Source of the DNA: Pseudomonas fluorescens
GTDB lineage: Bacteria > Pseudomonadota > Gammaproteobacteria > Pseudomonadales > Pseudomonadaceae
Reading direction: 5' to 3'
NCBI RefSeq assembly: GCF_001648775.1
Contig: NZ_LVEJ01000003.1
Coordinates: 186,001-250,000 of the forward strand
Length of the DNA: 64,000 nt
Under the pieces are notes generated by a model, which did not search any database, was not told where the DNA came from, and saw nothing but the letters and a program-made list of their open reading frames with translations. Shown piece by piece: positions 35,745-54,334 of the stretch (position 1 is its first letter; each line of letters opens with the position of its first letter). The position numbers and the translations under genes are program-made.

Positions 35745-36980
35745 TTAATTCGGTTGCGGCCAGCGGCGGAAAATCAACGAGGTGTTGACGCCACCAAAGG
35801 CGAAATTGTTGTTCATCACATAGTCGTGATGCATCTGGCGGAATTCGCCGCGCAGGTAATCGAGCTGGCCGCAGTGCGGATCGACCTCGTCGAGATTGAA
35901 CGTGTGCACATACAGGTCGCGATTCATCATCTCGATGCTGAACCACGACTCCAGCGCACCGCAGGCACCCAAGGTGTGGCCGAGGAAACTCTTCTGCGAG
36001 CTGATCGGCATGCGGGCACCGAACAGGCTGCTGGTGGCCAGTGTTTCGGCGATGTCACCCTGTTCGGTCGCGGTGCCATGGCCGTTCACATAGCCAATTG
36101 CGTCGGGCGTGAGCCCGGCATCTTCCAGCGCCAGTTCCATCGCGCGGCGCATGGTCACCTGTTCCGGGCGGGTGGTGTGCTGGCCGTCGGCGTTGCTGCC
36201 GAAACCGACGATCTCGGCGTGGATGTGTGCACCGCGTGCCAGCGCATGTTCCAGCTCTTCAAGCACCAGCATGCCGCCGCCTTCACCGATCACCAGGCCG
36301 TCGCGGCCCTTGTCGTACGGACGTGGGCTGGTCTGTGGCGCATCGTTCTTCAGACTGGTGGCGTACAGCGCATCGAAGACCATGGCTTCGGTCGGACAGA
36401 GCTCTTCGGCACCGCCGGCGAGCATCAATGGCAGACGACCGAACTTGATCGCCTCGTAGGCGTAGCCGATGCCCTGGCTGCCGCTGGTGCAGGCGCTGGA
36501 CGTCGGGATCAAGCGCCCGGTGAGGCCAAAAAAGATGCTGATATTGGCAGCGGTGGTGTGCGGCATCATCCGCACGTAGGAGTTGGCGTTAAGGCCTTCA
36601 GCCACCGAATTGAGCAGCATGTTGCCGAACGCTTTGATCTCGTCGGTGCTGCCGGTGGACGAGCCGCAGGCCACGCCCATGCGGCCATCCTTGATCGACG
36701 GATCGCCGAGCAGGCCGGCGTCGGCGAGGGCCTGTTCCGCCGCACCAACGGCAAGACGCGACACCCGGCCCATGCTGCGCAGTTGCTTGCGCGTCCAGTG
36801 CGCCGGCACCAGAAAGTCATCGATGGGCCCGGCCAGACGCGTGTTGAGTTCGCTGAAGCGATCCCACTCGTCCATCCGCCGAATGCCGCTGCGGTTGGCC
36901 GCGAAGTTGCCGGCGATGGTCTGCCAGTCGCTGCCCAGCGAAGTGATACCGGCCATGCCGGTGACGACGACGCGCTTCAT
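35745..36980 (-). CDS. apeR: beta-ketoacyl-ACP synthase (FabF-like) of aryl polyene cluster, ApeR type
   Basis: A 411-aa ketosynthase that condenses malonyl-ACP with the growing acyl chain. It has the full Cys-His-His set: Cys164 in SSACTSGS, His in NGHGTATEQGD, and His in FLGHTLGACGA. The start is ATG 36980, which has GGAGG 9 nt upstream; the earlier GTG is too close. It is the last gene of the minus-strand APE operon, overlapping apeQ by 1 nt (TGATG). By order and family it corresponds to ApeR of the E. coli/Xenorhabdus clusters. Confidence 0.88.
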   Translation of the reverse strand: MKRVVVTGMAGITSLGSDWQTIAGNFAANRSGIRRMDEWDRFSELNTRLAGPIDDFLVPAHWTRKQLRSMGRVSRLAVGAAEQALADAGLLGDPSIKDGRMGVACGSSTGSTDEIKAFGNMLLNSVAEGLNANSYVRMMPHTTAANISIFFGLTGRLIPTSSACTSGSQGIGYAYEAIKFGRLPLMLAGGAEELCPTEAMVFDALYATSLKNDAPQTSPRPYDKGRDGLVIGEGGGMLVLEELEHALARGAHIHAEIVGFGSNADGQHTTRPEQVTMRRAMELALEDAGLTPDAIGYVNGHGTATEQGDIAETLATSSLFGARMPISSQKSFLGHTLGACGALESWFSIEMMNRDLYVHTFNLDEVDPHCGQLDYLRGEFRQMHHDYVMNNNFAFGGVNTSLIFRRWPQPN

Positions 36981-37708
36981 CAGCACAAGCCTCCGTTGAC
37001 CGCCAGGACCTGACGGGTGATGTACGAGGCTTCCGCCGACATCAGGAAATTCACCGCAGCGGCGACCTCTTCAGGTGTGCCCATGCGTTGCGCGGGGATC
37101 ATTTTCATCAACTCCTCCACCGGCACGTTTTCATCGAGCATCGCCGTGTCGATCAGGCCCGGTGCGACGCAGTTCACAGTGATTTTGCGCTTGCCCAGCT
37201 CGATCGCCAACGCCTTTGCCGCGCCGATCACGCCAGCTTTGGAGGCGCTGTAATTGACCTGGCCACGGTTGCCGATCAGTCCCGACACCGACGTGATGCA
37301 GACAATGCGACCGGCAGCGCGGCGGCGGATCATCGGCATCATCACCGGGTGCAGGACGTTGTAGAAACCGTCGAGGTTGGTGCGCAACACCACGTCCCAA
37401 TCGTCGTCGCTCAGCGCCGGAAACGCGCCGTCACGGGTCAGCCCGGCGTTCAGCACCACGCCGTAATAGGCGCCATGGCTTTCGACGTCGGCTTCGAGAA
37501 TGGTTTTGCAGGTTTCGCGGTCGGCGACGTCGAATTGCAGGATGCGCGCTTTGCGCCCCAGCGCTTCGATTTCAGCCTGAACGCCTTGCGCCTCAGTCAC
37601 ACCGCTGCGGCAATGCAGGACGATGTCATGCCCGGCCTGAGCCAGACGCAAGGCGATGGCGCGGCCGATGCCACGGCTTGAGCCGGTGACCAGTACGGAC
37701 TCAGTCAT
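36980..37708 (-). CDS. apeQ: 3-oxoacyl-ACP reductase (FabG-like), ApeQ type
   Basis: A short-chain dehydrogenase of 242 aa reducing the 3-keto group after each condensation. The NADPH-binding TGSSRGIGRAIA lies at the N-terminus, the catalytic Ser in ITSVSGLIGNRGQ, and Tyr/Lys in NYSASKAG. The start is the ATG of MTESVLVTGSS. It overlaps the upstream dehydratase gene by 8 nt. Confidence 0.9.
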   Translation of the reverse strand: MTESVLVTGSSRGIGRAIALRLAQAGHDIVLHCRSGVTEAQGVQAEIEALGRKARILQFDVADRETCKTILEADVESHGAYYGVVLNAGLTRDGAFPALSDDDWDVVLRTNLDGFYNVLHPVMMPMIRRRAAGRIVCITSVSGLIGNRGQVNYSASKAGVIGAAKALAIELGKRKITVNCVAPGLIDTAMLDENVPVEELMKMIPAQRMGTPEEVAAAVNFLMSAEASYITRQVLAVNGGLC

Positions 37709-38165
37709 CCTTCGACTCCTTTTTTTGCACAAGATAATCAGCCGCTGCAGGCGGCCGGAACACATTCAACCGGGCCGTCGCTTCGATGCCGGGTGCGTTG
37801 ATATGGCATTCGAATACGCCCATGCCATTGTCATCTTCCAGCGAGCGAATGCCATGAATGGTCAATTCACTGCCCACGGGAAAAGCCTCGACATTGCACT
37901 CGAACTTGCGCGTACCGAGGAGGAAACCCAACTCCACCGGATTGCCTTTCAGTCGCGCGTGGCAACCGGCGAACGCGGCGACGCTCTGCGCCATCAACTC
38001 AACGCCGAGCCAGGCGGGCAGACTGCCGTCGGGCAGATTGAACAGGCCATCAGGCTTGACCGTGAGACGGGTGAAAATCTGCTCATCGTCGAAACTGAGG
38101 ATCGTGTCGATCAGGATCATGTCGCCGGCGTGGGGCAGCAATTCGGCGAGCGGCCAAGTGATCAT
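37701..38165 (-). CDS. apeP: hotdog-fold 3-hydroxyacyl-ACP dehydratase-like protein, ApeP type
   Basis: A 154-aa single hotdog domain. The N-terminal LLPHAGDMILIDTI and the central LGVELMAQSVAAFAG match FabZ-type dehydratases and retain the Glu of the ELMAQ motif. The GHFP segment that carries the catalytic His in FabZ is missing. In other APE systems ApeP works as a complex with ApeI; here the ApeI-type domain is fused to the ligase encoded at 49730-51409 and does carry GHFP. The start overlaps the upstream ketosynthase stop. Confidence 0.85.
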   Translation of the reverse strand: MITWPLAELLPHAGDMILIDTILSFDDEQIFTRLTVKPDGLFNLPDGSLPAWLGVELMAQSVAAFAGCHARLKGNPVELGFLLGTRKFECNVEAFPVGSELTIHGIRSLEDDNGMGVFECHINAPGIEATARLNVFRPPAAADYLVQKKESKDD

Positions 38166-39358
38166 GGGGCGTCTCCGATAATCAGGCTGACGTTGTTGCC
38201 CCCGAAGGCAAACGAGTTGCTCATCAGGTAGCGGGGTGCAATGGACGTCAGATGCTCGCTTGTGGTCACCCACTTCAGCGGCGGCAGGACGGGGTCGGCC
38301 TGGCCATCCCAGACGTGCGGCGGCAGGGCGCGAGCGGGGTTGTCGGCGCTCAGACTCAGCCAGCAGAACGCCGCTTCCAGCGCGCCGGCCGCACCGAGGG
38401 TGTGGCCGGTCAGCGGTTTGGTCGATGAACAGGCCACGCCTTCGGGGAACAGCGTGGCCACCGCCAGGCTTTCCATGGCGTCGTTATGTTGGGTCGCGGT
38501 GCCGTGCAGGTTCAGATAATCGATTTGCGCGGCTTGCAGTTGCGCTCGGCTCAAGGCTTTGCGCATCGATTGCAGGGCGCCGCGTCCAGTAGGTTCAGGG
38601 GCGGAAATATGATGCGCGTCGGAACTGGCGCCCGCCCCGAGCAGGGCGATGGCCGGGCCGTCACCGGGCTGCTTGCTCATCACGAACAACACCGCGGCTT
38701 CGCCGATGTTGATGCCGTTGCGATTGACCGAGAACGGATTGCAGCGCTCGCTCGACACGGCTTCCAGCGAGGAAAACCCATTGAGTGTCAGCTTGCACAG
38801 ACTGTCGACACCGCCACACAGCACGGCATCACAGAGGCCCAGATCGAGCAGGCGCTGCGCGCTCATCAGGGCGCGGGCGCTGGAGGTGCAGGCCGTGGAA
38901 ATCACATAGGCCGGGCCGCTCAGTTGCAGCCAGTCGGCGAGGAAATTCGCCGGCGCACCGAGCTCCTGTTGACGGTAATCGTATTGCGCCGGGAACTGCT
39001 GGTCACGAATGTAGTGCGCCAGGCCTCGGCTGGCCTCATCGATACCCGAAGTGCTGGTGCCAAGCACCACGCCGATGCGTTCGCGGCCGTAGGTGCGGAT
39101 CGCTTGATCGATGTCATCGCGAATCTGCAGTGCGGCTTCGAGCAACAGCTGATTGTTGCGGCTGCTTTGCTCGGCGAGCTCTGCGGGAATCGGCGCCAGA
39201 TCACCGTGTACCGCCGCTACCGGTATTTCACGTTCCGCCACCCAGCCGGATTCGCGGCGCATGCCCGAACAGTCGCCGGCAAACAGGTTGCGCGCGACTT
39301 CAGACTTGTTGCGGCCCAGCGAGCAGATCACGCCGAGGGCATTCAGGTAAGCAGTCAT
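38162..39358 (-). CDS. apeO: beta-ketoacyl-ACP synthase of aryl polyene cluster, ApeO type
   Basis: A 398-aa ketosynthase with Cys157 in STACTSSA, His in LHGTATQHND and His in LTGHTLGAAGA. It is therefore catalytically complete. In the characterised APE systems ApeO pairs with ApeC, a ketosynthase-like chain-length factor, which is encoded here as the first gene of the operon (53253-53978). ATGA overlap with the lipoprotein gene upstream and overlap with apeP downstream imply translational coupling. Confidence 0.88.
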   Translation of the reverse strand: MTAYLNALGVICSLGRNKSEVARNLFAGDCSGMRRESGWVAEREIPVAAVHGDLAPIPAELAEQSSRNNQLLLEAALQIRDDIDQAIRTYGRERIGVVLGTSTSGIDEASRGLAHYIRDQQFPAQYDYRQQELGAPANFLADWLQLSGPAYVISTACTSSARALMSAQRLLDLGLCDAVLCGGVDSLCKLTLNGFSSLEAVSSERCNPFSVNRNGINIGEAAVLFVMSKQPGDGPAIALLGAGASSDAHHISAPEPTGRGALQSMRKALSRAQLQAAQIDYLNLHGTATQHNDAMESLAVATLFPEGVACSSTKPLTGHTLGAAGALEAAFCWLSLSADNPARALPPHVWDGQADPVLPPLKWVTTSEHLTSIAPRYLMSNSFAFGGNNVSLIIGDAP

Positions 39359-39846
39359 GGCGTCGACTCACCGAGTGGAGAAACGCGATAGTGCGGGCCT
39401 TGGGGCAGGTTCAATTCGAAGCTCAACGGTTGTGCATAGTGGATCTCCCAACGCGCCGGCAGGGAACGTTGCCCGGCCTGTTGCTGCGCGCTGGGATAGT
39501 TGCGCAGCAGCTCGCCGGACGGGGTCAGGGCAAACAACAGCGCGGCGAACAGTTCCCGCGCCTCCGGGTTCGGCGGCAGCAGGCCATCGGCTTGCCAGTG
39601 GCCGTCGATCAATTGCTGACGGGCCTGGGGGATGCCCAACGGGTCCATCATCGACCAACGGATGCCGGGGCCTTCGCGCTGGATCACCAGCAGCCAGTCC
39701 TGGCGTTGTTCGGCTTGCTGGCGTTCGATGTGCAGTTGCAGCGGCAGGGGCAACGTCGGGTTGCCCGCCGGCAACGGCGCCTGGCTGGCGCATCCACTTA
39801 ACAACACCATCACGCCGATCATCAAAAGTCGCAGCGCTGAGGTCAC
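39355..39846 (-). CDS. apeN: DUF3261 lipoprotein of aryl polyene cluster, ApeN type
   Basis: A protein of about 163 aa with a lipoprotein signal (LLMIGVMVLLSGC, lipobox LSGC), followed by a DUF3261 domain. Such proteins accompany LolA and MMPL genes in APE clusters and may help deliver the lipid to the outer membrane. The start is placed at GTG 39846, giving MTSALRLLMIG. No ribosome site is visible, because a REP abuts the start; an ATG at MIGVM is the alternative. The longer frame upstream is translated REP. Confidence 0.75.
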   Translation of the reverse strand: MTSALRLLMIGVMVLLSGCASQAPLPAGNPTLPLPLQLHIERQQAEQRQDWLLVIQREGPGIRWSMMDPLGIPQARQQLIDGHWQADGLLPPNPEARELFAALLFALTPSGELLRNYPSAQQQAGQRSLPARWEIHYAQPLSFELNLPQGPHYRVSPLGESTP

Positions 39847-39936
39847 TGTGGGAGCGAGCTTGCTCGCGAATGCGGTCTCACATTCACCAGTTCTAGTGAC
39901 TGACACATCGCTTTCGCGAGCAAGCTCGCTCCCACA
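39847..39936. repeat. REP pair inside the APE operon
   Basis: REP cores at 39847-39870 and 39913-39936, about 42 nt apart, fill the gap between the methyltransferase stop (39939) and the lipoprotein start. They mark one of only two places where the operon is not tightly overlapping. Confidence 0.9.
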
Positions 39937-39938
39937 GG

Positions 39939-40676
39939 TTATTGGTAGCATCTGGAAGCCTCTGCCAGCGGCTTGCGCGCAACAACGTTCACCAACGTCT
40001 CTTCACGCTCGCCAAACGGTTTCGGCTTACGCAACCCAAACCGCTCCAGCAAGCCAAAATCCTTCGAGCGGCTCCACCACAAATACGGGTACGAGACATT
40101 CTTCTCGCCAAACTCAAACCCCTGTCCGCGAATCATCTCCAGGTACTGCGCCGCACTCTTCTGCACCTGCATCGGATGGCGGAACAGCCAGCGAATCACC
40201 CAGGTATCAATGTAAGCCTCGGTGGATTCGGCGAACAGCAGATAACCGCCCGGCTTGAGCACCCGGTAAAACTCGGCGAGGGCTTTTTCCTGCTCGACCA
40301 GATGATGAAACGTCTGGTGGCAGAACAGCAGATCAACACTGGCGTCCGGCACATTGAGCGTCGCGCAATCGCTGCCAATCAGTTCCACGTCGAGGTCCAG
40401 ACGTGTCGCTTCTTCGCCGCTCAATTCAAGGCTGTGCGGATCGGCATCGACGCCGATCAAACGCTGTGGCGCAAAGGTCTGGCGCAGATGGCCGAACGAC
40501 TTGCCCTGTCCGCAACCGGCGTCCAGCAGCACCGGATTTTCCGGCAGAGCGTCACTGAACAGTCCGCGCAAATCATTGATCGCCACGCGCAACACATGGT
40601 GCTGCCAGGTGTGGCTGCGCAGGAACCAGAAACCGAAGCGGGTCTCCTCGACGTAGCTGTCGCTCAAGTAATTCAT
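39939..40676 (-). CDS. class I SAM-dependent methyltransferase
   Basis: A 245-aa methyltransferase with motif I VLLDAGCGQGKS, motif II-like LIGVDADP and the post-I region DLLFCHQTFHH. The typical seven-strand fold is expected. It overlaps the flavoprotein gene upstream by 4 nt. In an APE context it most likely methylates the aromatic head group or its hydroxyl, but substrate and site are inferred. No membrane segments are evident. Confidence 0.83.
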   Translation of the reverse strand: MNYLSDSYVEETRFGFWFLRSHTWQHHVLRVAINDLRGLFSDALPENPVLLDAGCGQGKSFGHLRQTFAPQRLIGVDADPHSLELSGEEATRLDLDVELIGSDCATLNVPDASVDLLFCHQTFHHLVEQEKALAEFYRVLKPGGYLLFAESTEAYIDTWVIRWLFRHPMQVQKSAAQYLEMIRGQGFEFGEKNVSYPYLWWSRSKDFGLLERFGLRKPKPFGEREETLVNVVARKPLAEASRCYQ

Positions 40677-41920
40677 GGGGCGTCCTTTGCACAGAGTTCG
40701 GAAATCATCTTCAAGCGGCGCCGCGCTTCGCTGACGAACGGGTTGCGTTCATCCCAGGCGTAACCGGCGAGGATCGAGCAGATCATCCGACGGATTTCCG
40801 CCTGGCTGTCTTCATAGAAAATCACGTCCTGAAAGGTGCCGGCGTACCAGCCCTCGACGTAGCAGCGGAAGGTGTCGACGCCGCGCTTGAGCGGTTCGGC
40901 GAATTCGCTTTGCCAGTCGACGGTTTCACCCTGCAACTGACGGTGCAGCACCGCGGCGGCCATGCTCGCCGAACGCATGGCGATGGTCACGCCGGAGGAA
41001 AACACCGGGTCGAGAAATTCTGCGGCGTTGCCCAGCAGCGCGAAGCCCGGGCCGTGTAGGGTTTTCACATTGGCCGCGTAGCCGCCGAGAGTGCGTGCCG
41101 GAGTGTCCCACACAGCGTTGTTCAACACGCCGGCAAGGCTTGGGGTTTCGGCGATGAAGCTGCGCAGGCAGGCATCCAGATCGCTGTCACGGCCCTTGAA
41201 GTGTTCCTCGGCCGCGACCACGCCCACCGAGCAGCGGCCATTGCTGAACGGGATCGTCCAGAACCAGACATCACGGTGCTCCGGATGGGTGGTGACGAGG
41301 ATCTTTTCGCGGTCGAACGTCGGGTTGTCGATGTGATCTTCGACGTGGGTGAAGACTGCCTGGCGCAGCGGGAAATTCGACGGTGCTTCCAGGTCCAGCA
41401 GTCGTGACAGCACGCGACCGTAGCCGCTGGCATCGAGGACGAAATCCGCTTCGACGCGATACTCGCTGCCGTCCTCGCGATGCACCTCCAGCTGCGGTTT
41501 CGCCCGCTCGAAATCGACGCTGACGATGGCATCGCCATAGCGTATTTCAGCCCCTTGCAACGCCGCTTGATCGGCCAGCAGTTTGTCGAAATCGGCGCGT
41601 TGCACCTGGAACGTGGTCGGCTTGCCGCCGGTAAAGGTGTCACCGAAATCGAAGGCGCTGTAACGCTCGCCCCAGGCGAACGCGGCGCCGGTCTTGCGCT
41701 GGAAGCCGGCGGCGTTGACGGCGTCGAGCATGCCAGCCTCTTCGACGAAATCCAGGCAATGGCTGAGCAGGCTTTCACCGATGGAAAAGCGCGGAAAATG
41801 CTGACGCTCGATCACCAGCACATCGTGGCCCTTGCGCTTGAGCAGTGCGGCGGCGATGGCGCCGGACGGGCCGGCGCCGATGATCACGACCTGACGGGAT
41901 TCCATTTCAACGATTGGCAC
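40673..41920 (-). CDS. FAD-dependent oxidoreductase, tryptophan-halogenase-like
   Basis: A 415-aa flavoprotein. It has an N-terminal FAD-binding GAGPSG (15-20), the GESLL motif at 48-52, Lys76 in FQRKTGAAFAWG, WFWTIP at 219-224, and GNAAEFLDPVFSSG toward the C-terminus. Flavin-dependent halogenases carry a WxWxIP motif and a catalytic Lys near position 79, so both signatures are present. Members of the superfamily also include hydroxylases and geranylgeranyl-reductase-like enzymes. It may halogenate or hydroxylate the aryl head. The GTG start has GGAG 5 nt upstream and overlaps the antiporter gene by 14 nt. Confidence 0.82.
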   Translation of the reverse strand: MPIVEMESRQVVIIGAGPSGAIAAALLKRKGHDVLVIERQHFPRFSIGESLLSHCLDFVEEAGMLDAVNAAGFQRKTGAAFAWGERYSAFDFGDTFTGGKPTTFQVQRADFDKLLADQAALQGAEIRYGDAIVSVDFERAKPQLEVHREDGSEYRVEADFVLDASGYGRVLSRLLDLEAPSNFPLRQAVFTHVEDHIDNPTFDREKILVTTHPEHRDVWFWTIPFSNGRCSVGVVAAEEHFKGRDSDLDACLRSFIAETPSLAGVLNNAVWDTPARTLGGYAANVKTLHGPGFALLGNAAEFLDPVFSSGVTIAMRSASMAAAVLHRQLQGETVDWQSEFAEPLKRGVDTFRCYVEGWYAGTFQDVIFYEDSQAEIRRMICSILAGYAWDERNPFVSEARRRLKMISELCAKDAP

Positions 41921-43070
41921 GCGAGCTCCGGGGCAAAGGGTTTTTCAGATTCTTAGGCGCGCTGTGCAGGCCGATCAGGGCCGGTAGCAGCGTCGCGATC
42001 AAGCCCATCAACATCAGTGCGAAATACAGCGCCGGGGTGATGAGTTGTTGTTGCAAGAGCAGATTGAGAAAGACGATTTCGCTCAGGCCGCGAATGTTCA
42101 GCAGCACGCTTTCGCGCCAGCGGCTGGCGCCTGCGAACGAGGCGCCGGCCCAGCCGAGGCCGAGCCAGTTGCCGAGCAGTTTACTGGCAATCGGCAACAG
42201 CAGCAGCGCTGCCCATTGCAGCGGACCCAGGCTGGCAAGGGCGCTGTGCACATCGATCTGGACGATGCCGAACGTCAGTATCAGCGGGATGGCAATCCAC
42301 GTTTGCAAGCGGCTCATCCAACGTGCCGGCAAGGGCAGCACTAACGGTACTTTCATCGCGGCCATGCACAGCAGATAACCGATGCCGAAGATCAGCGCGT
42401 TGAGTTTGTAATGCTCGGCCATCACCAGCAGCGCGAAGAAACCGAGGCTGTAGGTCAGCGGTCGGCGCACACGCAACAGATGCAGCAACACTGGCACACA
42501 GGCGAGACCCAGCGGCAGCAGCAAACTGCTCAAATGCAGGCTGCCCTGCGCCAGGCCGAACAGCGTCCAGCAGCTCAGATCGATCAGGATCGCGGTTTGC
42601 ACCAGACGTCGGGTGGCGGCGGGCGGGTAATCGATGTGGCGCAGATACAGGTAGAGCACCGGGATCGCGGTGATCGCGAACACCAGGCCGATGGCCAGCG
42701 AGTTGAGCCACGGCTGCGCCGGCAGCAGCCAGTAAGCCGCCGCCAAGCCGCAAGCGAACGGCACGAGAAAACTCGGCACGGCGATTTTCACGCTCTGGCG
42801 GTCCAGACGCAGGTCGATCACATCGCTGAGGATATGCCCGAGCAACAGCGCAAAACTCAGGCTATAAAGGTTTTTCAGCCAGTCCGGAGCGATCAGTTCG
42901 GCGCCGCTGAGTTGCCAACCCGGTTCGACCCAGAAGTACATCAGCAGCGGCAGACCGAAGCTCGCCAGCAGAAGCTGACTGACGATCGGGATCAGGCCGA
43001 AATGGCGGCCGACACGGGTGGCCACGGCAAACAACGCCAGCGCCATCAGCCAGAAGGCGACGACCATCAT
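41907..43070 (-). CDS. CPA-type sodium/proton exchanger-like membrane protein
   Basis: A 387-aa integral membrane protein with about 12 helices. It has the overall shape of the CPA2/Kef family (Na+/H+ exchanger domain): repeated helices such as LYSLSFALLLGHILSDVIDL and a C-terminal LLPALIGL. No RCK or other cytoplasmic regulatory domain follows. It begins with an ATGA overlap on the MMPL gene, so it is an integral part of the operon. Such a gene is not part of the usual core APE set. It might power or balance ions for export, or be a diverged transporter; this is inferred. Confidence 0.72.
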   Translation of the reverse strand: MMVVAFWLMALALFAVATRVGRHFGLIPIVSQLLLASFGLPLLMYFWVEPGWQLSGAELIAPDWLKNLYSLSFALLLGHILSDVIDLRLDRQSVKIAVPSFLVPFACGLAAAYWLLPAQPWLNSLAIGLVFAITAIPVLYLYLRHIDYPPAATRRLVQTAILIDLSCWTLFGLAQGSLHLSSLLLPLGLACVPVLLHLLRVRRPLTYSLGFFALLVMAEHYKLNALIFGIGYLLCMAAMKVPLVLPLPARWMSRLQTWIAIPLILTFGIVQIDVHSALASLGPLQWAALLLLPIASKLLGNWLGLGWAGASFAGASRWRESVLLNIRGLSEIVFLNLLLQQQLITPALYFALMLMGLIATLLPALIGLHSAPKNLKNPLPRSSRANR

Positions 43071-45992: not shown

Positions 45993-46414
45993 CGCAGCAT
46001 CCTTTCCACCGCATCGGTGAAGACCTTCGGCGAAGCCAGTTGCATCTCGCGGCTGCTGACGTCAACGGCGACCTGCACCGAGCTGGCGCGGGTCAGGCGC
46101 TCACCGGTTTGCAGGTCGGTGATCAGGTAATTGATCTTCAGACGGTTTTCCCACTCGACCAGATTGGCGCGCACATTCAGGCGCTGGCCAAACACGGCAC
46201 CGCGCACGTAACGCAGTTGCAGGTCGATGATTGGCCAGGCGTAACCCGACTCGACCATGTGCGTGTAGTTGTGGCCGATCTTGTCGAGCAACGCGCAACG
46301 GGCGACTTCGAGGTATTTGACGTAATGGCCGTGCCAGACCACGTGCATAGTGTCGACGTCGAAAAACGGTACGAGGATTTCCGTATCGGCGTGAAGCACT
46401 CCGGCGCTACGCAT
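45989..46414 (-). CDS. apeK: acyl-ACP/CoA thioesterase (4HBT hotdog), ApeK type
   Basis: A 141-aa single hotdog protein. The motif FDVDTMHVVWHGHYVKYLEVAR is characteristic of 4-hydroxybenzoyl-CoA-type thioesterases and contains the catalytic Asp. It would release or edit acyl chains on the ACPs. The start is the ATG of MRSAGVLHAD, which overlaps the ammonia-lyase stop by 8 nt. Confidence 0.87.
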   Translation of the reverse strand: MRSAGVLHADTEILVPFFDVDTMHVVWHGHYVKYLEVARCALLDKIGHNYTHMVESGYAWPIIDLQLRYVRGAVFGQRLNVRANLVEWENRLKINYLITDLQTGERLTRASSVQVAVDVSSREMQLASPKVFTDAVERMLR

Positions 46415-47951
46415 GCAGCCTCCAGTGTTGCGCGGCGATGCGTTGCAGGCACAGGCGCAATTCGCCTTCCAGCGCGCGGTCTTCAATGACCGGCGGGAAG
46501 TCTTTGGCCAGTTCCTCGTGCATCGCTGCCAGCGACGGCGGCAGCGGTCGTGCGTCTTCGGCCTGGGCACGCAGCCACACGCCCTGGTTGGCGGCGAGCA
46601 GGGTGGCGGCGGCGACCTGTTCGGTCAGCTCCAGCACACGGATCGCATCGCGAGCAGCGATGGTGCCCATGCTCACTTTGTCCTGGTTGTGGCATTCGGT
46701 GGAGCGCGAGAACACGCTGGCCGGCATGGTATTTTTCAGCGCTTCGGCGGTCCAGGCGCTGGTGCCGATCTGCACGGCTTTAAAGCCATGGTTGATCATT
46801 GCGCGATCCGCCGGGGCGCCGGACAGGTTGCTCGGCAAACCGTGGTTGTAGCGCTCGTCGACCAGCAAGGCGAGCTGCCGATCGAGCAGGTCGGCGACGT
46901 TGGCCACGAGGTTTTTCAGGCTGTCCATGGCGAACGCGATATGGCCGCCGTAGAAGTGCCCGCCGTGCAATACGCGCTCGGCTTCGGCGTCGATGATCGG
47001 GTTGTCGTTGGCGCTGTTCAGTTCGATTTCAATGAACGAGCGCAGCCAGTTCAGGCTGTCAGCCAACACGCCGAGCACGTGCGGGGCGCAGCGCAGCGAA
47101 TAGCGATCCTGCAAACGGTGCAGCGGCGCAGTCGGCGCGTCGATTGCCAGATCCTTGCGCAGCCACGCGGCGACCTGCATTTGCCCCGGATGCGGTTTGG
47201 CGGCGAACAGACGCTCGTCGAAGTGCTCCGGATTGCCTTGCAGCGCAACCACATTGAGCGCGGTGATGCGCGTAGCCAGTTGCAGCAGATAGTCGGCGCG
47301 GGCGAAAGCGAGGCAGGCGAGGCCGGTCATCACCGCAGTGCCGTTCATCAGTGCCAGCGCTTCTTTCGGGCGCAGCACCAGCGGCGTCCAGCCGAGTTCG
47401 CGATGCACATCGGCGGCCTGGCGGCGTTCACCTCGGAACATCACTTCACGTTCGCCGGACAGGGTTGCGGCAACGTACGACAGCGGCGTCAGATCGCCAC
47501 TGGCGCCGACCGAACCTTCTTCAGGAATCAGCGGCAGAATGTCGTGTTCAAGGAACGCGTGCAGACGCTCGAGCAATTCCACGCGCACCCCGGACACACC
47601 GTGGCACAACGACTGCAAACGTGCCGCCAACACGGCGCGGGTCGCCTGTGCGTCGAGCAGTTTGCCCAACCCGCAACCGTGGAACGTGTAGAGGTGACGC
47701 GGCAACGCTTCGACGTGATGCAGCGGCACCGCGACCACGCAGGAATCGCCGTAACCGGTGGTCACGCCGTAGATCACGCCTTCCTTGTCCAGCAGCGAAT
47801 CGAGGAACCGCGCGCCTTTGGCGATGCGCTCGCGATAGTCGGCGTCGCTCTGCAACTGCACGGGGGCCTGACGGTTGGCCAGGGCCAGCACGTCTTCGAT
47901 GCGCAAAGGGCGTTCGCCGAAGGTTACCGGCTCATGGGTTGGCGTCGTCAT
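46407..47951 (-). CDS. MIO-dependent aromatic amino acid ammonia-lyase (HAL/TAL/PAL family)
   Basis: A 514-aa lyase forming the MIO cofactor from Ala150-Ser151-Gly152 (GSVGASGDLTPLSY). The catalytic Tyr loop is YGVTTGYGDSC (Tyr61). The residue pair that steers substrate choice appears as Phe90-His91 in LPRHLYTFHGCGLG. This differs from the Ser-His of histidine ammonia-lyase and the His-Leu/His-Gln of tyrosine ammonia-lyases. Given the cluster, it likely makes an aryl starter (cinnamate or coumarate) rather than urocanate. It overlaps both neighbours, so it belongs to the operon rather than to hut genes. Confidence 0.85.
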   Translation of the reverse strand: MTTPTHEPVTFGERPLRIEDVLALANRQAPVQLQSDADYRERIAKGARFLDSLLDKEGVIYGVTTGYGDSCVVAVPLHHVEALPRHLYTFHGCGLGKLLDAQATRAVLAARLQSLCHGVSGVRVELLERLHAFLEHDILPLIPEEGSVGASGDLTPLSYVAATLSGEREVMFRGERRQAADVHRELGWTPLVLRPKEALALMNGTAVMTGLACLAFARADYLLQLATRITALNVVALQGNPEHFDERLFAAKPHPGQMQVAAWLRKDLAIDAPTAPLHRLQDRYSLRCAPHVLGVLADSLNWLRSFIEIELNSANDNPIIDAEAERVLHGGHFYGGHIAFAMDSLKNLVANVADLLDRQLALLVDERYNHGLPSNLSGAPADRAMINHGFKAVQIGTSAWTAEALKNTMPASVFSRSTECHNQDKVSMGTIAARDAIRVLELTEQVAAATLLAANQGVWLRAQAEDARPLPPSLAAMHEELAKDFPPVIEDRALEGELRLCLQRIAAQHWRLHA

Positions 47952-48879
47952 CGGTCTTCCAGAAAGGGTAAAAGTTGAACCATTGTTGCGGCGCTTCGAG
48001 GCAATAGTGACTCAGGCGCTGCGCATAGCGGGTGGCCCACTGATGAATGACCTGCTCGCGCTCGCGGCGTGTCCACACCACGGCGTCGGCGAAAGGTTCG
48101 AGGGTCAGGCGATAGTGGCCGTCCGGCTGTTTCAGGCACATCAGCAGATTGACCGGGCATTTCAGCAAACCGGCCAGCAGCCACGGGCCTTGCGGGAATG
48201 GCGCGGGGTGACCGAGAAAGTCCACGGTGACACTGCGGCCGCCGTGCAGCGGTACGCGGTCGCCGGCAATCGCCAGCCACTCGCCGCGCTCCAGCCGTTC
48301 GTGCAGTTGCAGCATGATCACCGGGTCAAGTTCACTGACCTGAATCAGGCGCAGGTTGGTCGCTCCAGCTTCGCCGAGCAGGCGGTTGAATTGTTCAGCG
48401 TGCTTGGTGTGCACCAGCACGTTCATCGTGACCTTTTCGCCGATCTCCGCCAATGCCCGGCAGACTTCGAGGTTGCCCAAGTGCGCGCCGACCAGCAGTT
48501 GCCCACGACTGCCGCGCAATTGATTGCGCAGCAGCGCCGGGTCGATGATTTCGATCTGCTCGATGCGCAGCTTGCCGTTCCACACGTCGAGTTTGTCGAG
48601 CATTGAGTCGGCGAAGGCCATGAACTGACCGAACACCCGCCAATGCGTAGGACGCACATCCTCGCGCTGGCTCCACGCGGCCAGGCGTTGCTGGTATTGC
48701 CAGGCGCTGCGTCGCGCGGTGCGACCGAACAGGAAAAAGTACAGCACGATGCCGTACAGCAACGGGCTGAGCAGGCGTCGCCCCAAGACCTTGGCGGCGA
48801 ATGCGGTGAATTTCATCAGCAGGAAACTGCCGCGCTCTTCGCGGTCAGCCCAGTGTTTTTTGTCGGCTTCGCTGCTCAT
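47932..48879 (-). CDS. LpxL/HtrB-like lysophospholipid acyltransferase
   Basis: A 315-aa acyltransferase with an N-terminal membrane helix (LSPLLYGIVLYFFLF) and the HX4E motif in VGAHLGNLEVCRAL, as in late lipid A acyltransferases. It also carries GEWLAIAGDRVPLHGGRSV. In E. coli ApeJ, glycosyltransferase and acyltransferase are, as I recall, one polypeptide; here they are two genes joined by an ATGA overlap. It probably attaches the polyene or another acyl chain to the glycolipid anchor. Confidence 0.82.
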   Translation of the reverse strand: MSSEADKKHWADREERGSFLLMKFTAFAAKVLGRRLLSPLLYGIVLYFFLFGRTARRSAWQYQQRLAAWSQREDVRPTHWRVFGQFMAFADSMLDKLDVWNGKLRIEQIEIIDPALLRNQLRGSRGQLLVGAHLGNLEVCRALAEIGEKVTMNVLVHTKHAEQFNRLLGEAGATNLRLIQVSELDPVIMLQLHERLERGEWLAIAGDRVPLHGGRSVTVDFLGHPAPFPQGPWLLAGLLKCPVNLLMCLKQPDGHYRLTLEPFADAVVWTRREREQVIHQWATRYAQRLSHYCLEAPQQWFNFYPFWKTDDDANP

Positions 48880-49610
48880 GCCCGCCACCGTCGCCAGAGG
48901 ATCAGCGGAAAGCGCAGCAACATGCCGAAGAACAGCCGCGTGTGCATGCTCGAAATCAGCGCGTTGTCATGGAACAGGCGGAAGTGCGAAACGCCGTCCA
49001 GCGGGTAATGCACGCTGGTCTGCAGCCAGCGCATCGGTTGATTGCGCCACGCCAGACGCACGAGAATGTCCGAATCGAAGTCCATGCGTTTGCCGACTTT
49101 TGCCGAATCGATGACCGCCAGCGTCGGGGTCAGCGGATAGACGCGAAAACCGCACATCGAATCGCGGATCTGCAACGACAGCGTGTTGATCCAGACCATC
49201 ACGTGGGTCAGGTAGCGCGCGTACAAACGGCCCTTTGGCACGCTCTCGTCGAACAGCGGATACCCGCAGATCAGTGCTTCAGGGTTAAGGCGGGATTCTT
49301 CGACAAAACGGCCGACATCGTGCAAATCGTGCTGACCATCAGCGTCGACCTGCAACGCATGGGTGAAGCCCAATAGCGAAGCTTCACGCAGACCGGTCAT
49401 CACCGCGCCGCCCTTGCCCTGATTGGCGGTGAGGCGCACCAGATGCACGTCATCCCGTTCGGCCAGCGCGTCGAGCACTTTCGCGCAGGATGGCTCACTC
49501 GCATCGTCCACCAGAATGCACGGCAGATTTTGCGCGAGCAGGGCGTCGACCACGGTGCCGATCGCGGTTTCGTGGTTATAAACGGGAATCACGGCGCAAG
49601 GGTTATGCAT
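48876..49610 (-). CDS. family 2 glycosyltransferase of aryl polyene cluster
   Basis: A 244-aa GT-A fold glycosyltransferase related to dolichol-phosphate mannosyltransferases. It has the nucleotide-binding AVIPVYNHE, LVDDASEPS, and metal-binding VDADGQHD motifs. The start is the ATG of MHNPCAVIP with GGAG 7 nt upstream; the longer frame is translated REP. It likely builds the sugar part of the aryl polyene lipid. It is coupled to the following acyltransferase gene, together equivalent to ApeJ. Confidence 0.85.
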   Translation of the reverse strand: MHNPCAVIPVYNHETAIGTVVDALLAQNLPCILVDDASEPSCAKVLDALAERDDVHLVRLTANQGKGGAVMTGLREASLLGFTHALQVDADGQHDLHDVGRFVEESRLNPEALICGYPLFDESVPKGRLYARYLTHVMVWINTLSLQIRDSMCGFRVYPLTPTLAVIDSAKVGKRMDFDSDILVRLAWRNQPMRWLQTSVHYPLDGVSHFRLFHDNALISSMHTRLFFGMLLRFPLILWRRWRA

Positions 49611-49643
49611 GCCGTTTCTCCGCTGGAATACCGCAGTGACTGC

Positions 49644-49706
49644 TTCGCGAGCAGGCTCGCTCCCACATGAGGTCGCGATTCCTGTGGGAGCGAGCCTGCT
49701 CGCGAT
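49644..49706. repeat. REP pair inside the APE operon
   Basis: REP cores at 49644-49667 and 49683-49706, oppositely oriented and close together, lie between the ligase stop (49730) and the glycosyltransferase start. This is the second non-overlapping junction in the operon. Confidence 0.88.
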
Positions 49707-49729
49707 TGAGTGCGTAGCACTCACCAAGG

Positions 49730-51409
49730 TCAATCATGCTCTGCACCCAAAAGAATCCGCCCACTTGAGCAGGTCGCCGTGTCATTGCGATAGGCGAAAT
49801 ACAGCTTGCTGCGCTCCGGATCGAAACGCAGGTGCAGCTGGATTTCATCGCCGGGGCGCACCAGTTGCTGGAATTTCAGCACTTCCATACCGGCAAACGG
49901 GCCGGTCAGGTTGAGCAATTGGCGACCGAGGTTCAACGCCCATTCCACCTGCACCACGCCGGGCAATACCGGCGCTTTGGGGAAGTGCCCGCTGAAGTAC
50001 GCCAGATCCGGCGGCACGCTCAGTTGCAAGCTCCACTCACCCTCTGTCTCGACCTGCGACAGCACTTCGGGGGCCTTCGGTCGTGGGGCAATCAGCAGCG
50101 CTTCGACATCGGCCTGGGGCAGCTTGCCTTGGCTATTCAACGGCAATTGCCGCAGCAGTCGCCAACGTCGAGGCAGGGCCAAGGCCTCGCAATGGTCGCG
50201 CAAATGCTGGCGCAGGGTTTCAGTCAAGCGGCGGCGGCCGTGCTCACGCAAGGCAAACAACCCCGATTCACTGAGCACCAGCAAAGCACCGAGCGAGGCA
50301 CGGTTTTCCTGCACCACGCCCAAGCGCGCTTCGGCAACCCAGTCGTGGGCGACCAAGGCTTGTTCAAGCATGGGCAGAGAGATGCGTTTTTCTTCGAGCT
50401 TGACGATGCGGTCCAGCCGTCCGAGCAGTTCGAAGCGGCCATCGGCGGCGATGCGCGCGGCGTCGGCGGTGTGCTCAACGTGCCCGGCCGGTAAATAAGG
50501 TGAAGCGATCAACAGTGCGCCGTCGCTGTCCTGATTCAGTTCGACACCGGCGAACGGTTGCCATAGTGGGTCGCCCTGACGCCAGGCGATGCCGCCGGTT
50601 TCCGAGCTGCCAAGGATTTCCGTCGGCCACTGTTGCAGGCGTTGCTGCAGGCTTTGTGCGGCCTCAAACGGCAGTGCACCCCCGGAGGAAAACACCCGCC
50701 GCACCGCGCTCAGCGCCGGCCAGTCGAGGTTGTCGCCCATGCGTTTGAGCAGCGCCGGGCTGGCAACCCAGGCGAAAGCTGGATGCTCACGGCTGGCGCG
50801 CTGCAAATCTTCAGGGAAAGCCAGTTGCTTGCTCACAAACGAGCGTCCGGCGCACAACGGCCACAGCACGCGAAACAGCAAACCGTAGATGTGTTGGGTG
50901 GCGACGCTGCCGATGATGCAGGCTTGCGCGAGGTCCGCGCCCCACAGTTGCTCCAGCGCTTCGACCTCGTTGGCCAGTTGGCGCAGGGTCTTGTCGATAC
51001 GCTTGGGCTCGCCGCTGGAGCCGGAGGTGCACAGGCTCAGGCGGCACTGATCGAGATCCAGTTCGGCCGCGAGTAATGGCGGCAACCGAAAGTCGCTCAA
51101 CTGAGCGTCATCGGTTTGATCCGTCAGCCACAGGTCGACTTCAGCCGACCAGCGCTGGCGGGTTTGCGCTTGCAGATCCGAGGGCAACAGAACGCTGACC
51201 CCCGCGCGCCATGCACCCAACAGTGCAATGGCCAGTTCGGCGGCATCTTCCAGGTGCACAGCCACACGCTTCACGCCCTGAGCTTGCAGGCCGGCGGCAA
51301 CGCTCAATGCCTGCTCGCACAGTTGCGCGTGATCGAGTGCCGGCGCAGCGCAGATCGCCCGTGCCGGCTCAACCTTGAGCAACAGCTGCTCAAGTTTTAT
51401 CCAATTCAT
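49730..51409 (-). CDS. apeH: acyl-ACP ligase fused to a FabZ-like dehydratase (ApeH-ApeI fusion)
   Basis: A 559-aa two-part protein. Residues 1 to about 455 form an ANL adenylating enzyme (P-loop [15 protein letters not shown] motif [24 protein letters not shown] hinge). It activates an aromatic acid and loads it onto an ACP. Residues about 465-559 form a hotdog domain with [19 protein letters not shown], the FabZ active-site signature (His and Glu). In E. coli these are, to my knowledge, separate apeH and apeI genes. The start (MNWIKLEQ) overlaps the membrane protein gene by 4 nt. Confidence 0.85.
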
Positions 51410-51951
51410 GTACGGCCTCTTACCCGTTGTCGTATCAGCCATTCAATGGCAAACATCAGGCCGATCAATCCATAGGAGATCAGGCCGGTGTACAACATCC
51501 ACCAATTCAGCGGCGCCCACAGGGTCAGGAGGGCGGCGCACAAACCGTTGCAGAAGAAAAACACACTCCAGGCCACAGTGACCTTTCGCGTATAGCGAAC
51601 CGCAATGTCCGGCAACTGCGGCTCACGCAGGCGCGCCAGGCGCTCGACCATCGGCGGGCCGTATTTCAGGCTCAGGCTGAACAGCACCAGCATGAAACCG
51701 CTGATCAACACCGGGTACCAGCGCAGCAGCAACGGACTGTCGAACAGCGCCAACAACCCGCAGAAAATGATCGCCACACAGGCCATCCACAGGCTGCCGG
51801 GCTTGCGCTCGCCGGTCAGCGCCCGCGCCAGCCACAAACCGCCCAGCAGCAGCCCGAACTGCCACGGAGCAAAATGCTCCATGCCGAAATACACCGCAAA
51901 GGGGTACAGCAGGCCGGCCAGCAGCAGGCCGAGGCCGATCAATCGGCTCAT
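51406..51951 (-). CDS. apeG: COG4648 membrane protein of aryl polyene cluster, ApeG type
   Basis: A 181-aa integral membrane protein with about five or six helices (LIGLGLLLAGLLYPFAVYF, MACVAIIFCGLLALFD, WYPVLISGFMLVLFSLSL). It corresponds by place and family to ApeG, whose function is not established. It overlaps the ACP gene upstream by 4 nt and the ligase gene downstream by 4 nt. Confidence 0.82.
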   Translation of the reverse strand: MSRLIGLGLLLAGLLYPFAVYFGMEHFAPWQFGLLLGGLWLARALTGERKPGSLWMACVAIIFCGLLALFDSPLLLRWYPVLISGFMLVLFSLSLKYGPPMVERLARLREPQLPDIAVRYTRKVTVAWSVFFFCNGLCAALLTLWAPLNWWMLYTGLISYGLIGLMFAIEWLIRQRVRGRT

Positions 51952-52202
51952 GCGGCCGGTTGAACCAGACGGTAAACCGCCTCGACCACGTCACCGACGG
52001 TGCGCACCGATTTGAACTCTTCGGCGGCGATTTTCTTGCCGGTCTGACGTTTGATGTGATCGATCAGGTCGACGGCGTCGATGCTGTCGATTTCCAGATC
52101 CTGATACAGGTTGGATTCCAGGCTCACGCGGGCCGGATCCAGTTCGAACAGCTCGACCAGGGCATCGCGCAGGGTGTTGAAAATGTCGTCACGAGTTTGC
52201 AT
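51948..52202 (-). CDS. apeF: acyl carrier protein, ApeF type
   Basis: An 84-aa acyl carrier protein with the phosphopantetheine Ser in LEIDSIDAVDLIDH. It holds the starter or the growing polyene for the synthases. It lies 9 nt after the first ACP gene and overlaps apeG. Assignment of which ACP takes the starter cannot be made from sequence. Confidence 0.88.
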   Translation of the reverse strand: MQTRDDIFNTLRDALVELFELDPARVSLESNLYQDLEIDSIDAVDLIDHIKRQTGKKIAAEEFKSVRTVGDVVEAVYRLVQPAA

Positions 52203-52211
52203 GGTCCGGTC

Positions 52212-52487
52212 TCAAGCTGCCTGTTTTGCCGTGACGAACGCCGCAAGGCTCGCCACGTTGGTGAAATGGTTACGGGTGTCTTTGGCATCGGCATCGATCT
52301 TGATGCCGTATTTTTTCTGGATCGCCAGACCCAGTTCCAGCGCGTCGACGGAATCCAGGCCGAGGCCTTCGCCGAACAGCGTCTGCTCGTCGCCGATGTC
52401 GTCGGCGCTGATGTCTTCGAGGCCGAGGGCGTCGATGATCAGCAGTTTGATGTCATGCAGCAGGCTATGAGTGTTCAGATCGCTCAT
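52212..52487 (-). CDS. apeE: acyl carrier protein, ApeE type
   Basis: A 91-aa acyl carrier protein with the attachment Ser in GLGLDSVDALELGLAI. The start is the ATG of MSDLNTH, overlapping the acyltransferase stop by 23 nt. Two distinct ACPs in tandem are a hallmark of APE clusters. Confidence 0.88.
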   Translation of the reverse strand: MSDLNTHSLLHDIKLLIIDALGLEDISADDIGDEQTLFGEGLGLDSVDALELGLAIQKKYGIKIDADAKDTRNHFTNVASLAAFVTAKQAA

Positions 52488-53277
52488 CTTCGGCGAGCTC
52501 CTTGATAAAGTAAGAATGCAAATAATCGTTGAGCTTGCGCGAGGCTTGTGGGGCTGGCCCCTGCGCGGCAAAGGTCTGTGGGTCTATATCGGCGCCGACG
52601 CGAAAACTGAAGTGCACACGGCGGCTGGGAATCCGGTACCACGGTTCGGCTTTGGTCAATGTGGTCGGGCTGACCTTGATCATCACCGGCGTGAGGATTT
52701 TCGCACCGCGCAGGGCAATCGCTGCCGCCCCCCGATGAAAGGCCGGTGCCTGTCCCGGTTGGGTGCGCGTGCCTTCGGGGAAAATGATCAGCGTCTGACC
52801 GTTTTGCAGGGATTGAGCGGCGGCATCGAGCATGTCCATGCTGCCGTCGTTGCTGATGTACTCGGTGCTGCGCAGCGGGCCGCGCGTGAAGGGGTTTTCC
52901 CACAGGCTTTTCTTCACCACGCAATTGGCCTGGCGCACCAGGCCGATCAGAAACACCACGTCGATCAGCGACGGGTGGTTGGCGATGATCATCTGCCCCG
53001 GTCGGCCCAGGCGTTCAGCGCCCTGGATGTCATAGGTCAACACGCCGGTGCGGGCCATGAATCGCACGAAAAACCAGAACAGCCGACTGACGGTCTGCCG
53101 CGCGCGCTGGCGATGTGCGAGGGCGTCACCGGGCAGGCAGCCCAGCAGCGGGAACACCAGCACGCGCAGGCACAGCCCGCCGAGCCCGAACAGAGCGAAG
53201 CTTGCTGCGGTGGCCAGCAGGCGCCAGTAATAGGCGTCGCGGTTTTTCTCGGTCACGGGTTGCGTTGCCAGGTCCAT
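52465..53277 (-). CDS. apeD: 1-acyl-glycerol-phosphate acyltransferase-like protein, ApeD type
   Basis: A 270-aa PlsC-type acyltransferase. An N-terminal hydrophobic region (WRLLATAASFALFGLGGLCL, LVFPLLG) precedes the NHPSLIDVV block (HX4D) and FPEGTRTQPG. It likely transfers an acyl chain to a glycerolipid acceptor in making the lipid-anchored polyene. The start [11 protein letters not shown] overlaps the end of apeC by 25 nt. Confidence 0.85.
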   Translation of the reverse strand: MDLATQPVTEKNRDAYYWRLLATAASFALFGLGGLCLRVLVFPLLGCLPGDALAHRQRARQTVSRLFWFFVRFMARTGVLTYDIQGAERLGRPGQMIIANHPSLIDVVFLIGLVRQANCVVKKSLWENPFTRGPLRSTEYISNDGSMDMLDAAAQSLQNGQTLIIFPEGTRTQPGQAPAFHRGAAAIALRGAKILTPVMIKVSPTTLTKAEPWYRIPSRRVHFSFRVGADIDPQTFAAQGPAPQASRKLNDYLHSYFIKELAEDERSEHS

Positions 53278-53978
53278 ACACGATTTTTCCAGGCATGTTG
53301 GCAAAGGGGTTGCTGGCCGAGCAGGGTGCGCAACAGATTCAGCGCGTGGGGCCAGTGCGCTTTTGACCGTGTTTGTGTGGTGCTGTTCAGGGTCAGCCGC
53401 CAGTCGGTACCTGGGGTGAGCAACAGGCCGAGCGCATAAGGAAACGGCACGTCGTCGATCCATGCCGAGTACGCTGCGGGCGGCTGTTCTTCGGTGATCA
53501 CCAGCAACACTGCCGGGGCACCTTCATTGAGCAGCGCCGCGGCTTCGAGCATGCCGTTTTCGAGACCGTCGCCAGCGGCGGCAATGGCGGTCATTTCACT
53601 GGTTTCGCCGCGCATGATCGACCACAGACCAATGATTGCGTTGTGCACCGACAGGCTGAACTGCGTCGGCGACAGCGGTTGCTCGTTGGCCAGATCGCTG
53701 AGGATCTCGTAGGTGCGCGGGGTTTCGCCGTGGCGCGAGACGAAGACCAAGGGCAGATTCTCCCGTCCGTCGGCGAGTGGCCAGCCAACGCTGAACGCCA
53801 TGCGCGCCAGGCGACTGAGGCGGCGGCGCTGCATGGCCGGCAAAAACGACACATCGGGCGCGGCATCACTGCTCTGGAGCACGACCGGTTGTCGGCTCCA
53901 GGCCTGCCAGGCGTCCACGCTGTCGAGCCCGGGGGCCCACGCGCGCCATTGGGCGATGTTGAAGTTGATCACGGACAT
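53253..53978 (-). CDS. apeC: ketosynthase-like chain-length factor, ApeC type
   Basis: A 241-aa protein of the truncated ketoacyl-synthase N-terminal family. The region where an active ketosynthase has its Cys reads [15 protein letters not shown], without Cys, and no C-terminal His motifs are present. It is therefore probably a chain-length factor partner of ApeO rather than a catalyst. First gene of the operon, about 80 nt downstream of the predicted start of transcription. Confidence 0.8.
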
Positions 53979-54126: not shown

Positions 54127-54334
54127 CCGATTGGTTCGCTGGAAAAATGTCACTTGGCCATTATCCAGATTATCAGCGGCCTGTCTGTCGGCTATCTCGG
54201 CGATCAGTGGCAGTTTTTGCGGCGGCTGCCCGCGGATATTTGCACCTGACTCTGTAGTCCATGTCCATGAAGGTAGCGAAGCGAGGCTGAGCGCATCTAC
54301 ACTCGGTCATTCTTTGATACACGGAGGTTTGGTC

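Follow-up and report, generated by a model that had tools for sequence, protein, structure and literature searches.

What does a string of twenty closely packed genes in Pseudomonas fluorescens make, and how far does it depart from systems already described? The string occupies positions 35745-53978 of a 64,000-nucleotide (nt) window, the whole stretch of DNA that was analyzed (contig NZ_LVEJ01000003.1, positions 186,001 to 250,000); all 20 genes are on the minus strand, and all of their open reading frames (ORFs) are open. They run in the order apeC, D, E, F, G, an apeH-apeI fusion, genes for a family 2 glycosyltransferase, an LpxL-type acyltransferase, and an ammonia-lyase, and apeK, L, and M; after apeM come genes for an antiporter, a flavoprotein, and a methyltransferase, and then apeN, O, P, Q, and R. 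Judged from the gene sequences, the cluster is very probably the Pseudomonas form of the aryl polyene (APE) lipid operon, working as proposed below. It is ordinary for the genus, and the first-pass annotation, which was right on the type of cluster, overstated its novelty.

Assignment to the aryl polyene family

For 15 of the 20 proteins, tblastn finds a match in the Escherichia coli APE cluster (NZ_AP024130), whose core genes C to R stand in the identical order; the lyase, antiporter, flavoprotein, methyltransferase, and apeN have none there. The Pfam models for ApeI-like and ApeP-like proteins match proteins of the cluster. This order also holds in the APE cluster of Acinetobacter baumannii (CP035931; subject of PMC8358021 and PMC8041823) and in a Pseudoalteromonas cluster. 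An arrangement found again in all three of these organisms can hardly be put down to chance.

The first-pass annotation had staked the APE assignment on where the ketosynthases fall, and they group with E. coli ApeO and ApeR. In a tree of 23 rows, which holds no xanthomonadin or flexirubin ketosynthases, ten ApeO rows form one branch and ten ApeR rows another, each at 100/100 and each including the member from this cluster and those of E. coli and A. baumannii, and three other ketosynthases from the same genome fall apart from them (row L085_ApeR contains a stop letter, and two ApeO rows are of unusual composition). The other components of an APE pathway are also present: a ketosynthase-chain length factor pair (ApeO-ApeC) with ApeR as second ketosynthase, acyl carrier proteins, a ketoreductase, ApeI and ApeP dehydratases, a ligase, and genes for lipid attachment and LolA/MMPL export. 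The features are as follows, with percent identities to the E. coli cluster where given.

53253-53978, minus: apeC, beta-ketoacyl synthase chain length factor (PF13723, E 1.8e-79; 35% to E. coli ApeC)
52465-53256, minus: apeD, lysophospholipid-type acyltransferase (PF01553; 40% to E. coli; GTGA overlap)
52212-52487, minus: apeE, acyl carrier protein (PF00550; NF006617 above cut-off)
51948-52202, minus: apeF, acyl carrier protein (PF00550; NF003757 above cut-off)
51406-51951, minus: apeG, COG4648-type membrane protein (44% to the E. coli COG4648 protein; Pfam below cut-off)
49730-51409, minus: apeH-apeI fusion, acyl-AMP ligase and ApeI-like dehydratase (PF00501 and PF22818 in the same ORF)
48876-49610, minus: family 2 glycosyltransferase, part of E. 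coli ApeJ (PF00535; 52% to the E. coli ApeJ gene)
47932-48879, minus: LpxL-type acyltransferase, the other ApeJ part (PF03279; 36% to E. coli)
46407-47951, minus: aromatic amino acid ammonia-lyase with the ASG motif of the methylidene-imidazolone (MIO) group (PF00221, E 1.1e-160; ASGDL)
45989-46414, minus: apeK, thioesterase (PF13279; 47% to E. coli)
45390-45992, minus: apeL, LolA-like protein (PF03548, PF19574)
43067-45406, minus: apeM, MMPL/RND exporter (PF03176; 30% to E. coli)
41907-43070, minus: antiporter of the cation-proton antiporter (CPA) fold, optional module (AlphaFold model, match to NapA 5bz2, distribution)
40673-41920, minus: flavin-dependent halogenase-like protein binding flavin adenine dinucleotide (FAD), frequent module (PF04820, E 5.9e-27; 3nix, E 2.1e-107)
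39939-40676, minus: class I S-adenosylmethionine (SAM) methyltransferase, optional module (PF08241)
39355-39822, minus: apeN, probable lipoprotein in a LolB-like position (occupies the place of the DUF3261 gene in both E. coli and A. baumannii)
38162-39358, minus: apeO, ketosynthase (NF006618 above cut-off; ApeO branch, 100/100)
37701-38165, minus: apeP, dehydratase (PF22817, ApeP-like)
36980-37708, minus: apeQ, ketoreductase (TIGR01831 FabG2 above cut-off; 60% to E. coli)
35745-36986, minus: apeR, ketosynthase (NF006587 above cut-off; ApeR branch, 100/100)
35281-35724, minus: probable 21st operon gene, secreted, weakly YbjQ-like (20 nt past apeR; homologues)
35243-35266, minus: terminator-like hairpin past the 21st gene (10 pairs, 7 of them G-C; consensus match only)

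The identity of apeN comes from its position, as it has neither a Pfam match nor a tblastn match to the E. coli cluster. If the likeliest start codons are taken, 17 of the 19 junctions are overlaps or gaps of at most 9 nt. The description of 20 coupled minus-strand genes in APE order stands. Among these starts is a corrected one for the antiporter, an ATG at 43070 that overlaps the apeM stop as ATGA (an upstream GTG was discarded). The two wide junctions measure 119 nt (apeHI to the glycosyltransferase gene) and 116 nt (methyltransferase to apeN, given the apeN ATG at 39822, picked for a lipoprotein-like signal), and each holds an inverted pair of repeats resembling repetitive extragenic palindromic (REP) elements, at 49652-49698 and 39848-39935, respectively; the REP-like pattern has 22 matches in the whole window, against a shuffle mean of 3.85.

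Gene content departs from the E. coli type, as had been claimed. ApeH and ApeI are separate in E. coli and form one ORF here, ApeJ is one gene there and two here, and the E. coli cluster has no lyase, flavoprotein, or antiporter. A. baumannii is closer, with a split glycosyltransferase and acyltransferase, a lyase, a flavoprotein, and, as in this cluster, one ligase coding sequence and no separate apeI annotated.

Could the operon instead be of the flexirubin type, making a dialkylresorcinol (DAR) ester, or of the xanthomonadin type? We consider this very improbable. An ammonia-lyase is shared with the Chitinophaga flexirubin cluster, where a lyase and a coumarate ligase start synthesis as we propose here (PMC3992019), a halogenase-like gene is present, and the NCBIfam flexirubin models, through which alone the two clusters were compared, do match; all three nevertheless score under their cut-offs (FlxA 315 of 700 bits, FlxB 272.9 of 340, LolA2 66.3 of 125). 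No match to DAR genes or to a XanB2-type chorismate enzyme was found among the 20 cluster proteins, to which that search was limited, and the ketosynthases join E. coli ApeO and ApeR, in the tree without flexirubin and xanthomonadin rows. The likeness to xanthomonadins and the methoxylation suggested in the first-pass annotation find no specific support, with a methyltransferase that matches general families only and no XanB2-type match. A Pseudomonas donghuensis cluster was likewise judged nearer to the Vibrio fischeri type than to xanthomonadins (PMC5851621); the V. fischeri APE cluster (BGC0000837) serves as reference for Pseudomonas clusters and shares the ammonia lyase (PMC8719888, PMC5851621). 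The Azoarcus arc cluster, which makes arcuflavin, resembles this one by annotation in having a halogenase, a Na+/H+ antiporter, a methyltransferase, and APE core genes, and differs in its two loci, XanB2-type starter enzyme, DAR genes, and non-brominated product (PMC3949708).

Several observations weigh against the APE lipid operon as we propose it to work. E. coli carries a small protein and a methyltransferase gene upstream (apeA and apeB), and no counterpart of either was found here: the ApeA-like part of a relative's frame (below) has no match in this genome at E 0.01 (E. coli ApeA itself was not used as query), and the cluster methyltransferase, considered as a candidate ApeB, was rejected, having no BLASTP similarity to E. 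coli ApeB. The word "complete" used in the first-pass annotation therefore needs qualifying with respect to apeA and apeB. Promoter-like matches are at chance (3 seen, 2.9 expected), and 28 of 119 Pseudomonas genomes have no ApeO match. The lyase scores below all NCBIfam subfamily cut-offs (best BagA_FevW, 415.4 of 1000 bits), and it shares with the lyases of A. baumannii and Pseudoalteromonas an F-H motif at the selectivity-motif position; neither feature predicts the substrate. Finally, A. baumannii APE enzymes were assayed in vitro with 4-hydroxybenzoate (PMC8358021), although that cluster has a lyase, so the starter may not be coumarate.

Distribution in Pseudomonas and beyond

The genus was sampled in one even draw of 119 genomes, this one included, under strict E-value limits; partial copies count as present (flavoprotein in G028; antiporter in G044, G082, and G092; methyltransferase in G082 and G086; lyase in G086). 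Genomes with a match number 91 each for ApeO and the lyase, 86 for the flavoprotein, 84 for the methyltransferase, and 64 for the antiporter, and all four extra genes occur in 58 of the 92 genomes with ApeO or the flavoprotein. A draw of 274 genomes from the class has ApeO-like proteins in 62 (E 1e-50) and flavoprotein-like proteins in 45 (E 1e-35). We also read 80 named loci, the best 80 of 592 relatives picked by flavoprotein match, in which presence of the flavoprotein is true by construction; the nearest are P. fluorescens isolates, at 96-97%, and neither the genus of V. fischeri nor Xanthomonas is represented. Among the 54 Pseudomonadaceae loci, the lyase is in 51, the methyltransferase in 41, and the antiporter in 36 (one a shortened remnant), and two of the three loci without a lyase end at contig ends. 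Published surveys had already described such clusters in many Pseudomonas: the largest gene cluster family of one contained 58 aryl polyene clusters (PMC8942027), in another 23 of 37 genomes carry them (PMC8704066), and ammonia lyase is listed as a characteristic gene of APE clusters, which occur in Pseudomonas (PMC8719888).

A variable slot between apeM and apeN

The flavoprotein, methyltransferase, and antiporter genes occupy a common slot between apeM and apeN. Of the eight combinations that the three could form there, seven were seen; antiporter plus methyltransferase without flavoprotein was not. In E. coli the slot is empty, with apeM abutting apeN. The flavoprotein is alone in A. baumannii, which unlike this cluster has no antiporter or methyltransferase, and also in Pseudoalteromonas and five named Stutzerimonas loci; other genomes have the methyltransferase alone, the antiporter alone, two genes, or all three. 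In nine fetched regions the remaining genes are in place and the missing ones have no intact copy, with a methyltransferase remnant in L138.

The lyase is a second optional module, absent from one of the 91 Pseudomonas genomes with ApeO. Named loci without it, where apeK follows 11-84 nt past the acyltransferase gene, are from Achromobacter, Cupriavidus, metagenome-assembled genomes of Bordetella and Nitrosomonas, and Pseudomonas sp. KUIN-1. Four genes had been taken as additions to the operon, and this is correct for the antiporter and methyltransferase; the lyase and flavoprotein are not additions, because both occur at corresponding positions in A. baumannii and Pseudoalteromonas. The lyase is 60% identical to that of the A. 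baumannii cluster (301 of 498 aligned columns).

Is the flavoprotein a halogenase?

The flavoprotein matches the Trp_halogenase family (PF04820, E 5.9e-27), and K76 and the motif W219-x-W221-x-I223-P224 are invariant in all 16 aligned sequences (its own and 15 homologues at 44-86% identity; the alignment excludes the distant homologues L044-L048, at 30-37%, and also L038 and L040). W-x-W-x-I-P is present in all 17 plus-strand loci read, including L021, L044, L045, and L047. We take K76 to be the catalytic lysine and WxWxIP to be the motif of flavin-dependent halogenases. Intact motifs would permit halogenation and do not prove it.

That the protein is a true ring halogenase, giving a pigment that carries chlorine or bromine in the manner of xanthomonadins or chlorinated flexirubins, is in our judgment just short of an even prospect. 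The family match and both invariant motifs favor it, as do the PDB matches that come next after the first, which are halogenases (8zop, CmlS, 5buk, and others), and the existence of chlorinated flexirubins (PMC3992019). A Lysobacter xanthomonadin-like cluster that has no counterpart of the Xanthomonas halogenase gene yields a non-brominated pigment (PMC3691225), consistent with such genes acting as halogenases. Against this, the best PDB match (3nix, E 2.1e-107) is named just flavoprotein/dehydrogenase, six of the 91 genomes with ApeO have no flavoprotein match, and arcuflavin is non-brominated despite an annotated halogenase in the arc cluster (PMC3949708), although ArcA is likened to the flavoprotein by annotation and not by sequence homology. 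No halogenated Pseudomonas APE is reported in the titles among the literature matches listed.

The protein could also be a monooxygenase or other oxidoreductase that hydroxylates the ring or oxidizes the polyene and keeps halogenase-like motifs, a reading that is plausible at somewhat less than even chances. It would account for matches to FAD_binding_3 and to 4-hydroxybenzoate hydroxylase, both of them weaker than the halogenase matches, and the flavoprotein occurs in clusters with and without a lyase; the retention of both halogenase motifs speaks against it.

Two observations concern the flavoprotein elsewhere. In Pseudomonas syringae GR12-2 (L108) its match falls into two separate pieces, which points to a broken gene or to an error of assembly, and in Neisseria sp. 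MVDL19-042950 (L127) a 59% homologue stands with the other 19 queries unmatched within 10 kb on each side under the thresholds applied.

An antiporter seen in aryl polyene clusters

For the antiporter of this cluster, Pfam gives no match up to E 10, PF00999 included (PF00999 matches two of 25 aligned members, best 3e-8), and a PDB sequence search gave nothing useful. The argument that a protein without a family match is no antiporter was rejected by a fold search. Its AlphaFold model (predicted local distance difference test score, pLDDT, 82) matches NapA (5bz2, E 1.2e-7, template modeling [TM] score 0.65, root mean square deviation 5.5), NHA2, MjNhaP1, NhaA, and KefC; there are 62 PDB matches at E<=0.001, and among the 50 matches listed, all are CPA-type exchangers. 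The call of a CPA-type antiporter in the first-pass annotation is thus borne out by a predicted fold of the NhaA/NapA type.

Among the genomes searched, the antiporter is found solely in APE clusters. This genome has no second copy, and the other 273 genomes of the class draw have none (E 1e-5). In 62 of the 64 Pseudomonas genomes with a match, the flavoprotein lies within 200 nt; in G099, one of the remaining two, the antiporter lies between apeM and apeN and there is no flavoprotein, and in G082, the other, a broken copy stands next to the flavoprotein gene. The antiporter may drive or balance pigment export. That it is instead a passenger gene without a role in the pigment seems to us rather doubtful, though far from negligible: 28 of the 92 genomes with the cluster have no antiporter match, and copies in several genomes are partial or broken, whereas the single match in this genome, its isolation among the 274 of the class, the location of all 64 genus matches in APE clusters (G099 and G082 too), and the ATGA coupling to apeM all argue against it. 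As to decay, the copies in G044, G082, and G092 are partial or broken, and in Pseudomonas sp. M47T1 (L075:9637-10011) what is left of the gene is a remnant of 125 residues, upstream of the flavoprotein gene.

A conserved gene after apeR

The operon probably extends to 35281, judging by a 21st gene that encodes a 147-residue secreted protein and begins 20 nt past apeR (35281-35724). An unknown-function protein is described as adjoining ApeR in PMC8358021, and in the A. baumannii record the homologue after apeR (50%) is annotated "excinuclease." Of the 80 named loci, 38 have a homologue on the downstream side of apeR, including loci from Stutzerimonas, Achromobacter, Cupriavidus, Paucimonas, and Corallococcus. 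Counting against membership in the operon, none was found in the stretch compared for the other 42 loci (Shewanella and Methylococcales included) or for E. coli. Terminator-like matches in the region are near chance (22, against 18.6 in shuffles, standard deviation 4.0).

An ApeA-like lipoprotein gene stands between apeR and the 21st gene in 13 of the 80 loci (L060, L064, L066, L079, L080, L082, L089, L091-L093, and L099-L101), and in L049, L055, and L081 a single 267-270-residue frame after apeR joins an ApeA-like part to the 21st-gene domain; the frame in L050 starts in the same way. The 21st-gene protein itself was considered as ApeA and rejected, since it has no similarity to E. coli ApeA and in relatives the two occur as neighbors or joined.

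The AlphaFold model of the 21st-gene protein (pLDDT 90; the modeled sequence began one codon ahead of the start) finds weak fold matches only; none reaches E 0.001, and DUF74/YbjQ-type proteins lead (3qkb at E 6.5e-3, 1y2i, and 1vr4). YbjQ_1 is matched weakly by 19 of 24 aligned members (best 0.0014), the member from this cluster not among them, and two cysteines are invariant in all 24. A PDB sequence search gave nothing useful.

The domain has two copies in this genome, 53% alike; the paralogue lies about 1 kb beyond the 21st gene, in the downstream direction and on the same strand (33745-34188). In A. baumannii a phosphopantetheinyl transferase gene (L141:21845-22501) follows the excinuclease-like gene, and none was recognized there in this cluster. 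At the other end of the operon, a ParA-like ATPase gene (54332-55105) is divergent from it; no cluster regulator gene was identified.

Proposed pathway

The following steps and their product we infer from the gene families and from the roles given to APE pathway genes in PMC8253772. The ammonia-lyase would supply a hydroxycinnamate-type starter, perhaps 4-coumarate from tyrosine, and the ApeH domain would load it on an acyl carrier protein, much as flexirubin synthesis starts by a lyase and a ligase (PMC3992019). ApeO-ApeC and ApeR, with ApeQ, ApeP, and the ApeI domain, would extend the starter to a conjugated polyene, which ApeD, the glycosyltransferase, and the LpxL-like acyltransferase would attach to lipid. 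ApeM, ApeL, ApeN, and perhaps the 21st gene product would move the pigment to the outer membrane or hold it there. The flavoprotein would possibly halogenate the phenol ring, or otherwise oxidize it, and the methyltransferase would methylate it. ApeB presumably methylates the head group of the APE (PMC8253772); the methyltransferase of this cluster, which has matches only to general SAM-methyltransferase families, might act by C-methylation or by O-methylation of the ring.

Implications

The gene set is a standard one, and a yellow pigment in the membrane can be expected from it in many Pseudomonas species. Two of its parts have drawn little notice, namely the CPA-fold protein, which in the genomes searched occurs solely in APE clusters, and the conserved secreted protein encoded past apeR, whose A. 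baumannii homologue is labeled "excinuclease." A bolder picture, which we regard as unlikely as a whole, is that apeM-apeN is a general swap site where tailoring modules enter and leave APE operons, that a dedicated antiporter confined to the cluster energizes pigment export beside a ring halogenase, and that the secreted YbjQ-like 21st protein helps ApeA to anchor the polyenes; if it were true, closely related pseudomonads would display combinatorially different outer-membrane polyenes. Relatives set apart by one gene alone, whether for the flavoprotein, the methyltransferase, the antiporter, or the lyase, are clean natural experiments, and the role of each gene in pigment chemistry should therefore be readable across strains by mass spectrometry.

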